From NCBI RefSeq assembly GCF_014207855.1, contig NZ_JACHKZ010000001.1, positions 124,001 to 188,000 on the forward strand: DNA of 64,000 bases, read 5' to 3'. Shown piece by piece: positions 35,940-41,406 of the stretch. The stretch comes from Comamonas odontotermitis (lineage in GTDB: Bacteria; Pseudomonadota; Gammaproteobacteria; Burkholderiales; Burkholderiaceae_C). Every line of letters starts with the position of its first letter. Within the stretch, counting starts at the first letter, position 1. A program made the position numbers and the translations under genes. The notes beneath the pieces were generated by a model. That model did not search any database. It was not told the origin of the DNA and was given only the letters and a program-made list of their open reading frames with translations.

Positions 35940-36050
35940 GTCGCTAAAAATCCGTGTTGATCAGGCAGCTTCACTGCAAAAAGTAAAATGGCGGGTTCCA
36001 TCCTGGCGCGGGGCCGGCATTGTTGCCTGGGGCACCCGCCAACGCACACT

Positions 36051-36545
36051 ATGACACCCATCCAAGTTGGCGTGGTCATGGGCTCCAGCAGCGACTGGGA
36101 CACCATGCAGCACGCAGTTGCCATTCTCCAGCAATTCGGTATCGCCTTTGAAGCCCAGGTGGTCTCGGCGCACCGCATGCCAGACGATATGTTCCGCTTT
36201 GCCGAGAGCGCAGCGGACCGGGGCCTCAAGGCCATCATCGCAGGCGCAGGCGGCGCCGCGCATTTGCCGGGCATGATAGCCGCTAAAACCACCGTGCCGG
36301 TGCTGGGCGTGCCCGTGGCCAGCCGCCACCTGCAAGGCGTCGATTCGCTGCACTCCATCGTGCAGATGCCCAAGGGCATACCCGTGGCCACATTTGCCAT
36401 CGGCAACGCAGGCGCCGCCAACGCGGCATTGTTTGCCGTGGCCCTGCTGGCCAATGAAGATGCCGCGCTGCGCAAGAAACTCGACGCCTTCCGCGCCGAG
36501 CAGACCGAAGCGGCCCGCAACATGACCTTGCCGGTGAACGCATGA
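36051..36545 (+). CDS. purE: N5-carboxyaminoimidazole ribonucleotide mutase
   Basis: The 164-aa class I PurE converts N5-CAIR to CAIR in purine biosynthesis. Signature segments are [15 protein letters not shown] near residue 10, [11 protein letters not shown] (substrate His), [13 protein letters not shown] and [22 protein letters not shown]-like ending in [10 protein letters not shown]. The ATG at 36051 overlaps no upstream gene; the open frame to 35988 is promoter. The stop overlaps the purK start by 4 bp (ATGA). Confidence 0.95.
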
Positions 36546-37729
36546 GCCATACCTCCAAGCAAGCCACCAAGGACACTGCCCCCATCCTGCCGGGTGCCAC
36601 CCTCGGCGTGCTGGGCGGCGGCCAGCTCGGCCGCATGTTCGTGCAGACCGCACAGGCCATGGGTTACTTCACCGCCGTGCTGGACAAGGACGAAACCAGT
36701 CCCGCGGGCCTCGTGAGCCACCACCACATCCGCACCGGCTACGAAGACCCGCAAGGCCTGGCAGAGCTGGCGCGCCTGTGCGACGCCGTGACCACCGAGT
36801 TTGAGAACGTGCCCGCAGGTGCCCTGAACCAGCTCGCAACCAGCCTGCCGGTATCGCCCGCAGGCTCTGCCGTGGCGATTGCGCAGGACCGCGCTGCAGA
36901 AAAGGCCCATTTCGTGAAATGCGGAGTGCCCTGCGCGCCCTATGCGGTGATCGAGACCGCAGCGCAGCTGGCGGCCGTGAACGACGCCTTGCTGCCCGGT
37001 ATCTTGAAGACCGCCCGCATGGGCTACGACGGCAAAGGCCAGATCCGCGTCAAGACCCGCGCCGAGCTGGTGGCCGCATGGGACGAGCTGAAGCAGGTGG
37101 CCTGCGTGCTCGAAAAAATGCTGCCTCTGGCGCACGAATGCTCGGTCATCGTGGCGCGCAGCCGCAGTGGCGACATCGTCAACCTGCCCGTGCAGCGCAA
37201 CCTGCACCGCGACGGCATTCTGGCCGTGACCGAGGTTTTTGCAGGAAATGTGCCCCCTGTGCAAGCCGAGCAGGCGATTGCAGCTGCAAAATCAGTAGCA
37301 ATCGGCCTCGACTACGTGGGCGTGCTCTGCGTAGAGTTCTTCGTGCTGGAAAACGGCCAGCTGGTGGTCAACGAAATTGCGCCACGCCCGCACAACAGCG
37401 GCCACTACAGCCAGAACGCGTTGGATGTGTCGCAGTTCGAGCTGCAGGTACGCTGCATGGCCAACCTGCCGCTGGTGCAGCCGCGCCAGCACAGCGCCAC
37501 CATCATGCTCAACCTGCTGGGAGACCTGTGGTTCAGCGGCGGTGTGGCCAAAACGCCAGCCTGGGACGAGATTCTGCAGCTGCCCGGCGCCCACCTGCAC
37601 CTCTATGGCAAGGTCGATGCCAAACCCGGGCGCAAGATGGGGCACCTGAACATCACCGCCGCCACGCCCGAGAAGGCGCGCGAGACGGCGCTGAAGGCCA
37701 CCGCCATCCTGGGTATCGAAGCGTTTTAA
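36542..37729 (+). CDS. purK: N5-carboxyaminoimidazole ribonucleotide synthase
   Basis: The 395-aa ATP-grasp enzyme makes N5-CAIR from AIR, ATP and bicarbonate for the adjacent PurE. Visible are [20 protein letters not shown] at the N-terminus, [26 protein letters not shown] (ATP loop), [20 protein letters not shown] and [16 protein letters not shown]. It is translationally coupled to purE by an ATGA overlap and followed 9 bp later by tsaC. Confidence 0.95.
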
Positions 37730-37738
37730 GGACTTGAT

Positions 37739-38737
37739 GTGATTCTGGATGGAACGCTGGACACCTCGGTCCGCACCGCTGCCGCAGCCTTGCAGGCGGG
37801 CCAGCTTCTGGGCCTGCCCACCGAAACGGTCTACGGGCTGGCAGCAGACAGCGACAACGATGCCGCCGTTACGCAGATCTTCGCGGCCAAGGGGCGGCCC
37901 GCCAACCATCCGCTGATCGTGCATGTGGCGGGCGCAGACGCCATCACCCGCTACGCCAAGGAAGTGCCGGTATTTGCCCAGCAGCTGATCGACGCCTTCT
38001 GGCCCGGCCCGCTGACGCTGATCCTGCCGCGCCTGCCGCAGGCCGCCAAGGCCTCGACCGGCGGGCAGGACAGCGTGGGCCTGCGCTGCCCGTCGCACCC
38101 CGTGGCCCATGCCGTGCTGCAGGCCTGCCAGCAGCTCGATCCTCCCGTCTGGGGTGTCTCCGCGCCCAGCGCCAACAAGTTTGGCCGCGTCAGCCCCACC
38201 ACGGCCCGCCATGTCGCCGATGAGTTCGGCGACGACCTTCTGGTGCTCGATGGCGGCGCCTGCGAGGTCGGCATCGAATCGACCATCGTCGACTGCACGC
38301 GCGGTGTGCCCGTGCTGCTGCGCCCCGGCGCCATCACGCGCGACGACATCGCACGCGCCTGCGGCATGCAGCCGCTCTCCAAAGAAGAGCTACCCGCACA
38401 TACCCCTCGTGCATCGGGAACGCTTTTGGCCCACTATGCGCCCAATGCCAAGGTACGGCTCATGGATGCCAAGCAGCTGCAATCGGCCCTCGACATTCTG
38501 GGCGCCGATGGCAAGAACATCGCCATCTACCACCGCAGCCCGCTGAAAGCCGGTAGCACGCACCTGCTGCTGCGCCGCATGCCAACCGCACCGCTGGCCG
38601 TGGCGCGCGAGCTCTTTGGCATGCTGCGCAATTTTGACGACTGGGGCGCCAAGCTGATCTGGATCGAGACACCGCCCGAGACAGCCGATTGGGAAGGCGT
38701 GGCCGACCGGCTGCAACGCGCCGCAGCAGCTGGCTGA
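37739..38737 (+). CDS. tsaC: L-threonylcarbamoyladenylate synthase (Sua5/TsaC type)
   Basis: The 332-aa enzyme makes threonylcarbamoyl-AMP for tRNA t6A37 modification. The N-terminal YrdC domain (residues 10-190) has GLPTETVYGLAADS, IFAAKGRPANHPLIVH, FWPGPLTLILPR and SAPSANKFGRVSPT; the C-terminal Sua5 domain (about 210-332) makes this the long form. The start is GTG 37739 with AAGGA 7 nt upstream, 9 bp after purK, so purE-purK-tsaC form one operon. tsaB of the same pathway is at 49460. Confidence 0.93.
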   Translation: MILDGTLDTSVRTAAAALQAGQLLGLPTETVYGLAADSDNDAAVTQIFAAKGRPANHPLIVHVAGADAITRYAKEVPVFAQQLIDAFWPGPLTLILPRLPQAAKASTGGQDSVGLRCPSHPVAHAVLQACQQLDPPVWGVSAPSANKFGRVSPTTARHVADEFGDDLLVLDGGACEVGIESTIVDCTRGVPVLLRPGAITRDDIARACGMQPLSKEELPAHTPRASGTLLAHYAPNAKVRLMDAKQLQSALDILGADGKNIAIYHRSPLKAGSTHLLLRRMPTAPLAVARELFGMLRNFDDWGAKLIWIETPPETADWEGVADRLQRAAAAG

Positions 38738-38821: not shown

Positions 38822-39979
38822 TTACCACCCCGCCTGCACCAGACGCGCGCTGACGGCGGCTCCCAACTGCGCATGGCCGCGCGGCGTTGGGTGAAAGCTA
38901 TCGGCAAACACATAACTCTGCCACCAATCCGCCGAAGTCTGGCCTGCGGGAATGCGGGCCGAGAGCCCTGCAGCCGTGCAGGTTGACAGATCGTACTGCG
39001 GCAGGCCATTGGCATCTGCGCCACTGGCGGGGCAGGCGGGCGTCGTCACATTGGTGTAGCCGTACTTCTGCGGCAGGCTCACCTGGTCATTCAAGGCAGC
39101 GTAAAAATCAACCACCGCCAGACGGGTATCGCCCGCCAGACTGTTGGCCAGCTGCTGGTTGAAAGCGCGCACCCAGCCCGAGATCAGCGCCTGCAACTGC
39201 TGCGCAGCCGCCTCGCCCTGCTGCGCAGCCACGGCCTGCAGCACCACGCGGAGCTTGGGCGTCAGGCTCACATCGGGCATATTGAGCACCGCAACCCGCA
39301 GCGCGCCCTTGTCTACCGTCTGGCTGCGGATGGTGCCTGCCCAGTTCTTGGCCAGCGCCTGCAGATAGGCGCCGCCAGCTGTTGCCAGCCCGCTGGCACC
39401 CTTGCCCATCAAATCTTGCACCGTGGCGGCATCGAGCTGGGTGGACAGCAGGGCCCGGTAGGCAGCCCCCTGATCGGAGGCTGCACCCAGATAGGCGGTC
39501 ACCAGATCCGAAGCATCGTTGCCGCCGCCATCGATCAACAACAAGTCTCCCTTGCCGAAGCCTGCCGCTGCCGCGTCGCGCAGCTGCTGCGGAATAGACA
39601 ACGGTGAGCTGGCCGACTGCACATAGTTGATGCGGCCCCCGCCAATGGCGTAGTTGGTGCAATTGGCCTGCGCGGCAAAGCTGCTGCCATTGAAGCGGTA
39701 GTGCGCGCACACGCTGGTGCCGTACTGCGTGGCCACCTGATCGACCCATAGCGGGGTCGATCCCGCGCCCACCGCCTGCGCTGCCTGCACGGTGAATTTG
39801 TAGCCAAAGGTGCCGCTGTCGGCCAGGCTGTCGCCCATCACCTTCACGGCGGTCACCCGCGTGTCGTCGTCATCGCTGCCGCCCCCTCCGCAGGCGCTCA
39901 GCAATGCGGCGGCAGCGGCCGCCCCCGTCCATAGGGCCCACCGCGCCCAACGGGCGGCTTGAAATCGTTGCGTGCGCAT
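38822..39979 (-). CDS. SGNH/GDSL hydrolase lipoprotein
   Basis: The 385-aa protein has a lipoprotein signal (AAAAALLSAC, lipid Cys30) followed by a GGGGSDDDD linker and a GDSL esterase/lipase domain. All catalytic blocks are intact: KVMGDSLADSG (Ser51), LLIDGGGNDASD (Asn) and DSFHPTPRGH (Asp-x-x-His). It should be an outer-membrane or periplasmic ester hydrolase. The start at 39979 gives an Arg-rich n-region. It is convergent with tsaC; a related but catalytically altered gene lies divergently at 40411 beyond an inverted-repeat element. Confidence 0.88.
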   Translation of the reverse strand: MRTQRFQAARWARWALWTGAAAAAALLSACGGGGSDDDDTRVTAVKVMGDSLADSGTFGYKFTVQAAQAVGAGSTPLWVDQVATQYGTSVCAHYRFNGSSFAAQANCTNYAIGGGRINYVQSASSPLSIPQQLRDAAAAGFGKGDLLLIDGGGNDASDLVTAYLGAASDQGAAYRALLSTQLDAATVQDLMGKGASGLATAGGAYLQALAKNWAGTIRSQTVDKGALRVAVLNMPDVSLTPKLRVVLQAVAAQQGEAAAQQLQALISGWVRAFNQQLANSLAGDTRLAVVDFYAALNDQVSLPQKYGYTNVTTPACPASGADANGLPQYDLSTCTAAGLSARIPAGQTSADWWQSYVFADSFHPTPRGHAQLGAAVSARLVQAGW

Positions 39980-40004
39980 GCTGTCTCCTGTCGCTGTTGG
40001 TTGA

Positions 40005-40288
40005 AAGAACGTGTTTACGATCTCCTCGCGCCGCGACAGTGGCTTTGCGGGGCGCCCGGCTAGGGAGGGGATGCTAGGCGCAATACCGCAGCAATAGCCC
40101 CGCTATTGCGAGGATTTGCAACAACGCAGACCGCCCGCAATGCCACTGTCCCTCTGGGTTGGAGCGAAATCGGGCAATTTCTGCGCGCTGGCCCTTGCTT
40201 GCACCCCGGTGCAAGCTGCGTCCCATCGCTTCGAACTCATCCCGATTGCACTCCAACGCGGCAGCGTAGAGATCGTAAACACGTTCTT
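40005..40288. mobile_element. 284-bp element with 20-bp perfect terminal inverted repeats (MITE-like)
   Basis: AAGAACGTGTTTACGATCTC (40005-40024) is the exact reverse complement of the sequence at 40269-40288. The 244 bp between the arms encode no recognisable protein. The ends recall insertion-sequence termini, and the size fits a non-autonomous miniature element. No obvious flanking target duplication was seen. It fills most of the 431-bp gap (39980-40410) between two divergent SGNH genes. Confidence 0.6.
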
Positions 40289-40410
40289 AGAACCCAAGCG
40301 TACGACTGCGTCCCCGCGGTGCCCATACAGGTTTACCACTCTTTACCTCAGTGCTTTGGTGGTCCCCCCCAGCCTCGCTACACTACGCACTACAAATTTG
40401 GAGAACCTAC

Positions 40411-41406
40411 ATGGCAGAAAACTGGATGCACCGTACCCTGTTGACCGCCGCGGCAGCTGCCTCGGTGGCTCTGCTGGCGGCTTGCGGCTCTAGCACCACA
40501 GCGAACAGCGTTCGCCCCGACAGCATCATCACCTTCGGCGACGCAATGTCCGATCTGGGCCAGAACTCCAATGGCAGGCCCTACTCCGTCACCACCACCG
40601 ACGGCCTCCAAAACAACTGGACGCGCGAGATCGCCTACCGCTATGACCTGACCTTGACGGCAGCACGAGCAGGCGGCACGGCCTACGCCCAAGGCAATGC
40701 CCGCGTGGCGCTGCCCGATGCCACCGGCACCAATGCGCCGTCCATCACCTCGCAGATCGACAGCTACCTGGCCGCCAACCCCAAGTTCCCCGACAAGCAG
40801 TTTGTGCTGCTGAGCGGCGGCATGAGCGATGTGATTGCGGGCTACAACGAAGTGCTGGCTGGCACCACCACCGTTGACCAGTACCTGGCCAACATGAGAA
40901 CCGCAGGCAAGCAGATGGCCGATCAGGTACGCCGCCTGCACGTGGCTGGCGCGCCGCGCGTGCTGGCCATTGGCACCCCCAACGTCTCGCGCACCCTGTG
41001 GGCCAAGGGCCTCGATACTGCCAACCCTGCGGCCGACCCCCAGCCCACCAAAACACTGGAAGACGCCACCAATGCGTTCAACCAGACCATGCAGGTCTCC
41101 CTGGTCGATCTGGATGGCACACAGGTGCTGTACTCCGACGTGCAGTACTACTTCAACTCCATGACCGGCAACCCCGGCAACTTCAACTTCACCAACAACA
41201 CCGACCCGCTGTGCACCACCGTGGATGCCACCAACGGCATCGGCATCGGTGCTGGCCAGATCAATTCGTCGCTGTGCACCATCGACACCGTGGTCGACAG
41301 CAGCAAGATCTCGCAGTACGTGTTTTCGGACAAGATCAACTACACGCCCGAAGCGCATCGCCGCTTCGGTGACTGGGTCTATGACCGCATGAAGGCCAAC
41401 TGGTAA
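40411..41406 (+). CDS. SGNH-fold lipoprotein lacking the catalytic residues (probable pseudoenzyme)
   Basis: The 331-aa protein is a lipoprotein (signal ending LLAAC, Cys25) with an SGNH-like domain: IITFGDAMSDLGQN near residue 39, LLSGGMSDVIAG at 133-144 and FSDKINYTPEAHRRFG at 305-320. At each catalytic block the expected residue is replaced: Ser by Ala45 (GDAM for GDSL), Asn by Ser139 (GGMSD for GGxND) and His by Asn310 (DKIN for DxxH). The glycine-rich block II (ARAGGTAYAQGNARV) is kept. It is thus likely a binding or structural protein derived from an esterase. ATG 40411 with GGAG upstream is chosen; 40426 is an alternative. Followed by a terminator. Confidence 0.82.
   Translation: MAENWMHRTLLTAAAAASVALLAACGSSTTANSVRPDSIITFGDAMSDLGQNSNGRPYSVTTTDGLQNNWTREIAYRYDLTLTAARAGGTAYAQGNARVALPDATGTNAPSITSQIDSYLAANPKFPDKQFVLLSGGMSDVIAGYNEVLAGTTTVDQYLANMRTAGKQMADQVRRLHVAGAPRVLAIGTPNVSRTLWAKGLDTANPAADPQPTKTLEDATNAFNQTMQVSLVDLDGTQVLYSDVQYYFNSMTGNPGNFNFTNNTDPLCTTVDATNGIGIGAGQINSSLCTIDTVVDSSKISQYVFSDKINYTPEAHRRFGDWVYDRMKANW

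Follow-up and report, generated by a model that had tools for sequence, protein, structure and literature searches.

A lipoprotein gene of Comamonas odontotermitis belongs to a clade of probable SGNH (GDSL) pseudoenzymes

Gene A, located in the window (the whole stretch of 64,000 nucleotides of Comamonas odontotermitis DNA analysed here), probably codes for a pseudoenzyme that has become fixed: a lipoprotein of the envelope which acts via the vestigial pocket of an SGNH hydrolase and/or via a conserved, presumably disulfide-bonded loop. We assign this reading a probability of about 0.75. Its most secure part is the non-catalytic role, which is well supported by the residue patterns of the homologues; binding of a ligand or of a partner comes next. 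A homologous fold, clade-wide loss of catalytic residues and purifying selection, the sequence features expected of a pseudoenzyme, were all found for gene A.

Fold, lipoprotein signal and catalytic positions of gene A

The Pfam profile PF00657 (Lipase_GDSL) matched the gene A product with 35.9 bits, above the cut-off of 23.6. Translation revealed the motifs GDAM (residues 43–46), GGMSD (136–140) and DKIN (307–310). The block I nucleophile Ser of SGNH/GDSL hydrolases is absent and replaced by Ala45, the block III oxyanion Asn is absent and replaced by Ser139, and in block V Asp307 is present and the His at position 310 is changed to Asn. These three substitutions had been read from the sequence in the original prediction and were seen again in translation and alignment. 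Their description as a replacement of all three catalytic positions holds for Ser and His; the triad, however, consists of Ser, Asp and His, and its Asp is kept. The loss in gene A comprises two triad residues plus the oxyanion Asn.

The lipobox LLAAC ends with Cys25 and is followed by Gly. Lipoproteins without Asp at position +2 are sorted to the outer membrane, and the gene A product shows this pattern. Together with the PF00657 match, the lipobox confirmed the earlier claim that fold markers and lipoprotein signal are retained. The positions of all features are compiled in Table 1.

Table 1. Features of the gene A region (positions in the window)
Feature	Coordinates	Strand	Basis
purE, purK, sua5: conserved upstream anchor of gene A	35988..38737	+	Pfam AIRC, PurK_C, Sua5; synteny
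Gene B, GDSL hydrolase lipoprotein with intact Ser51, Asn154, Asp360, His363	38822..39979	-	translation, Pfam, alignment
Inverted-repeat element, MITE/REPIN-like, filling much of the B/A intergenic region; apart from the pseudoenzyme	39999..40294	.	repeat search
Gene A, SGNH-fold lipoprotein, probable pseudoenzyme, 331 aa	40411..41406	+	translation, Pfam, alignment, tree
Lipobox Cys25, then Gly26	40483..40485	+	translation
Ala45, at the nucleophile Ser position	40543..40545	+	translation, alignment
Gly88, block II oxyanion Gly, kept	40672..40674	+	alignment
Ser139, at the oxyanion Asn position	40825..40827	+	translation, alignment
Cys268-Cys289 loop, 22 residues, best-conserved stretch of the core family; putative disulfide	41212..41277	+	conservation scan
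Asp307, catalytic Asp, kept	41329..41331	+	alignment
Asn310, at the catalytic His position	41338..41340	+	alignment

Identical residues at the three altered positions were found in a second genome (G017), whose protein is 99% identical to gene A, and in six further genomes of the genus at 75–77% identity. A sequencing or assembly error was rejected because the same residues occur in independent genomes.

A structure model of gene A built from six sequences was of moderate quality (mean pLDDT 58.5, pTM 0.63), with pLDDT values below 50 over residues 249–312, which cover the Cys-Cys loop and block V. Foldseek matched the model to PlaA, ChoE, EstA and TLH, with PlaA and ChoE at the top. Superposition on EstA-type esterases, proposed as a check of the original prediction, returned the SGNH fold: VIA-align gave a Z of 19.7 against ChoE (220 residues, rmsd 3.1), 18.3 against PlaA and 16.7 against the EstA-type passenger 3kvn. 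PlaA was also the best sequence match to a solved structure (E 6.9e-5). In the phmmer alignment of both proteins (8a24), GDA of gene A falls on GDS and DKIN on DLVH.

The PlaA profile NF045906 scored 39.9 bits with gene A, below the curated cut-off of 450. It matched 43 of 45 aligned clade members at E 1e-5, and the Pfam GDSL profile matched 27 of them at E 0.001. Scans of these 45 members returned PlaA, EstP and PlaC only from NCBIfam and two generic GDSL profiles only from Pfam, hence no dedicated model in either collection. Since only GDSL enzyme profiles match, automatic annotation is likely to call members of the gene A family lipase or esterase, a name that would be wrong for their function.

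Catalytic loss across the clade

The phylogenetic tree was a quick IQ-TREE calculation of 125 rows, 87 of them gene A representatives, with SH-aLRT values only and 51 of 122 inner forks open. It placed 85 rows behind one branch (SH-aLRT 97) and the 40 others, including gene B, outside. This A clade splits into a core of 71 rows (SH-aLRT 97) and a group of 14 rows (SH-aLRT 100) characterized by Glu at the Ser position. Two of the 87 gene A rows, L168 and L173, fell outside the clade among ordinary GDSL proteins, and their residues are intact. Clade membership requires one change on the tree. Ser at the nucleophile position, found in 9 of 85 rows inside the clade, requires 8 changes and hence is scattered; the Ser-bearing members may be reversals or late losses.

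In 157 aligned homologues, the Ser column contained Ala (62), Gly (62), Ser (16), Glu (16) and Asp (1). Rows L181–L185, repeats of L007, L011, L012, L014 and L015, were left out of the residue counts, and the core and sister counts omit four further rows: L168 and L173 for lying outside the clade, L157 for its odd C-terminus and L179 for partial masking. Among the 137 core members, the Ser position is occupied by Ala (62), Gly (61), Ser (13) or Asp (1), the Asn position by Ser (98), Ala (22), Asn (1) or others (16), and the His position by Tyr (112), Asn (12), His (12) or Phe (1). The catalytic Asp is kept in 135 of 137. The derived signature of the family consists of GD[A/G], SD in place of ND, and DxxY. 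The complete Ser-Asn-Asp-His set is absent from all 137 core members; three of them (L128, L137 and L142) have Ser, Asp and His without Asn. Conservation of GDAM and DKIN in orthologues had been suggested as a further check. The loss turned out to be clade-wide; the exact letters vary, with Ala or Gly at position 45 and mostly Tyr at position 310.

Gene B, the divergent neighbour at 38822, had been predicted to keep Ser, Asn and His, and its motifs GDSL, GGGND and DSFH demonstrate that it does. In 81 rows matched by gene B (the B of the window counted twice, some rows cut by locus ends), Ser, Asn and His are invariant wherever a row has a letter at the position (64, 67 and 79 rows, respectively), and Asp occupies 74 of 80, the remaining six having Asn. 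Set against these intact B-type rows, the lack of the complete four-residue set in every core member argues that the catalytic loss is not due to chance.

Conservation at the former catalytic sites 45 and 139 is average (percentiles 44 and 56 of positions). In the representatives it amounts to 0.79 for Tyr310, 1.00 for Asp44 and 0.97 for Asp307. Among 71 representatives, conservation reaches 0.99 at Cys268 and 1.00 at Cys289. The mean conservation of the stretch between them (268–289) is reached by 0.4% of sliding windows, and the consensus in the middle of the loop reads GIGIGxGQVNS. A simple pattern search detected a lipobox-like motif in all 137 core members, followed by Gly, Ala, Ser or Ile.

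A full-length gene A orthologue was found in 13 of 53 genomes of the genus. In the family search, 182 of 399 genomes matched gene A at 1e-12. At least 143 of these 399 genomes, in 64 of 141 genera, contain a clade homologue, a count that takes in fetched homologues counted as members without tree placement. A core member is present in at least 126 of the 399 genomes and at least 51 genera. Stretches were fetched for listed family matches down to about 59 bits; for the rest, the loci are those given by the searches. The order-level search (399 genomes) yielded 69 matches at 1e-12. Nineteen genomes of other families were sampled with one stretch each, and all 19 GDSL proteins keep Ser (one with GAS for GDS). 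For this reason the dead clade appears to be confined to the family of the window genome, within the stretches opened. The original prediction had implied a local loss beside an active sister gene. This does not hold, as the loss is common to at least 51 genera in the core and the neighbour lies outside the clade.

Selection on gene A is purifying. The closest pair had a dN/dS ratio of 0.03; across the 131 pairs with more than 72% identity, the median was 0.27 and the highest value 0.51. In the B family the median was 0.12 (89 pairs); gene A evolves faster. No internal stops were present among the matches listed in the genus and family searches. A local pseudogene was rejected on account of these matches and the low dN/dS.

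Genome context and the partner question

In 102 of 118 loci, purE, purK or sua5 is located within 5 kb upstream of gene A on the same strand. Of 120 loci with longer flanks, L168 and L173 were set aside, which leaves the 118 counted; at 13 loci gene A was placed from homology coordinates. The loci of the Glu group have mostly the same neighbours as those of the core, which supports common descent. Other neighbour clusters, named from their sequences, are presumably rimI, tsaB, udg, SemiSWEET, fba and purC.

In the strongest rival reading, gene A would serve a nearby active GDSL hydrolase (B, for example) as a non-catalytic regulator, chaperone or substrate-presenting subunit, and an OmpW porin would at times join them in this enzyme-pseudoenzyme module. 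A GDSL gene lies within 1 kb of gene A in 43 of 118 loci, always downstream, 36 times convergent and 7 times in tandem. Near gene A, 32 of 121 loci (L141, 7959-8630, among them) have an OmpW-type gene, identified by a Pfam OmpW match of one cluster member; a GDSL gene is present as well in 25 of the 32, and the OmpW-type gene is often situated between that gene and A. Furthermore, A and B co-occur more often than expected by chance in the 399 genomes of the family (53 with both, 90 with A only, 36 with B only, 220 with neither; B counted at E 1e-100 or better), giving an odds ratio of 3.6 and a p of 3e-7, not corrected for kinship.

Against this rival, no second GDSL open reading frame was detected in 75 of 118 loci over about 7 kb on each side or what the contig allows, and the nearby hydrolases belong to more than one tree group. 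The gene order in the window also differs from that of the 43 loci, as B lies between sua5 and A and is divergent from A. In the genus, 11 of the 13 genomes with gene A are without a B orthologue (two of them with weak B matches, E about 1e-23), so that strict dependence of A on B was rejected. These counts, and the presence of both genes in 2 of 53 genomes, leave B as at most an optional partner. We regard this partner reading as unlikely.

Across the 53 genomes of the genus, orthologues of A and B hardly ever occur together: 13 genomes carry A, 26 carry B (E 1e-80 or better) and 2 carry both. The B family resembles gene A in being a lipoprotein with an invariant Cys pair, at 25% identity over the full length, and differs from it in its position outside the A clade and in its full catalytic set.

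The arms of the inverted repeat between B and A measure 31 nt and are 87% complementary. Its 20-nt terminus has 87 copies in the genome at up to 3 mismatches, compared with 0 for the reversed control, and many of these copies form inverted pairs 33–320 bp apart on many contigs. Eighteen repeat stretches were fetched, the longer of which align at 75–92% identity. Inversion of a phase-variable promoter between B and A was considered and rejected, as the orientation is the same in G017 (one genome compared) and the terminus is a genome-wide repeat.

Proposed role and relation to known SGNH proteins

Gene A would represent an old family of catalytically inactive SGNH (GDSL) lipoproteins, apparently passed on together with its locus. 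The protein is predicted to be exported and anchored in the outer membrane and to be unable to hydrolyse esters. Its vestigial pocket may bind an acyl or ester ligand, its conserved loop may bind a partner, or both, and the protein would act as a binding, sensing or scaffold protein of the envelope. The disulfide loop, activity-limiting in active relatives such as PlaA, may have become a working surface in gene A.

Ester hydrolysis should be abolished since nucleophile and base are lost and single exchanges at the corresponding residues inactivate PlaA and SrL. In the available part of the PlaA report, activity of S30N, D279N and H282N was at background (PMC5701174), and the accessible text on SrL describes exchanges of Ser10, Asn82 and His216 to Ala as inactivating (PMC10779480). 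A retained non-enzymatic role, as proposed in the original prediction, is well supported by these mutants, the clade-wide loss, purifying selection and synteny; its more specific part, binding of lipid or glycan, is plausible. The titles of PDB entries announce structures of ChoE S38A, H288N and N147A with acetylthiocholine. An SGNH pocket with one such change can thus still hold substrate. In simulations of SrL, as far as given in the available text, the Asn82Ala pocket did not retain its substrate in either run (PMC10779480), an argument against binding where the Asn is missing. The moderate conservation of sites 45 and 139 and the value for Tyr310 suggest that a precise pocket is not strongly enforced, and the patchy presence of full-length gene A in the genus indicates that the gene is dispensable in many lineages.

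It is very improbable that gene A codes for an enzyme with an unconventional site, in which Asp44/Asp307, Tyr310 or, in the sister clade, Glu45 would take the place of Ser. Both Asp residues are nearly invariant, Tyr is usual at the His position, and variant SGNH sites with an inverted oxyanion hole or Ser-His dyads exist; the variants described in the available part of that source, however, retain the Ser nucleophile (PMC9487903). Ala and Gly, the prevailing residues at position 45, are incapable as nucleophiles, the window protein has Asn rather than Tyr at position 310, and the PlaA and SrL mutants cited above are dead. This possibility applies above all to the Glu group, which keeps Asn in 14 and His in 6 of 16 members. 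Decay of a functionless paralogue, compatible with the catalytic loss and the patchy occurrence in the genus, is largely refuted and hardly credible in view of the lack of internal stops among the matches listed, a dN/dS well below 1, the conserved lipobox and Cys pair, the common locus in 102 of 118 cases and only two damaged or incomplete sequences (L157 and L179) among 157 aligned homologues.

EstA carries a beta-barrel. EstA-type GDSL autotransporters share the SGNH passenger fold (3kvn) with gene A, which in contrast codes for a 331-residue lipoprotein only, without catalytic residues. The nearest fold is that of ChoE, the SGNH acetylcholinesterase of Pseudomonas aeruginosa; ChoE is an enzyme, and according to the entry titles its laboratory mutants S38A, N147A and H288N resemble the natural state of gene A. 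PlaA of Legionella pneumophila, a GDSL lysophospholipase A (NF045906; PDB 8a24-8a26), has the same fold and likewise a Cys-Cys loop just before block V. According to the available part of its description, PlaA is active, has a Ser30-Asp279-His282 triad and is type II-secreted, unlike the lipoprotein A without Ser and His, and its 28-residue disulfide loop C243–C272 limits lysophospholipase activity and is cleaved by protease (PMC5701174). The equivalence of both loops is based on their place before block V, as the phmmer alignment does not pair both loop Cys.

Pseudoenzymes of the GDSL family are already known in plants. ERMO3/MVP1/GOLD36 is an apparent pseudoenzyme with Gly at the catalytic centre and, as stated in the available part of the report, is a plant protein carried to the vacuole (PMC3498303), in contrast to the bacterial lipoprotein clade in which Ser, Asn and His are lost. 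Three of 116 GDSL sequences of Arabidopsis were called dead in the accessible part of another study (PMC4757993). For bacteria, a clade of GDSL pseudoenzymes was not encountered in searches of the open-access literature, which leaves most subscription journals outside. A natural clade from which the catalytic set has been removed and the rest kept provides a ready experiment on the uses of the SGNH fold beyond catalysis, and it also bears on the disulfide loop as a possible interaction surface. Proteins with Ala for the nucleophile may retain their ligand, which would open it to direct experimental identification.

A more far-reaching picture is tentative and rather doubtful as a whole: a bacterial clade may have converted an SGNH hydrolase into an envelope receptor without hydrolytic activity by Ser to Ala/Gly and His to Tyr changes, with the loop as main functional surface and a Glu-for-Ser route in the sister clade at the same locus. 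Where present, the active GDSL lipoprotein and the OmpW porin next to it would form with it an enzyme/pseudo-enzyme/channel module for capture and uptake of esters or lipids.

The Glu-type sister clade (L161-L163, L165-L167, L169-L172, L174 and L176-L180) occupies the same locus as the core. Its counted members (n=16) have Glu at the Ser position in 15 cases, Asn in 14, Asp in 11 and His in 6, and the sole Ser-bearing row, L175, keeps Ser, Asp and His. This clade possibly represents a different reuse of the SGNH fold. L175 and the three core members with Ser, Asp and His might have residual activity. Altered block I sequences around a kept Ser were observed at two loci, GTS in L174 (5660-6865, beside the Glu-type A) and GAS in L202 (4868-5927).
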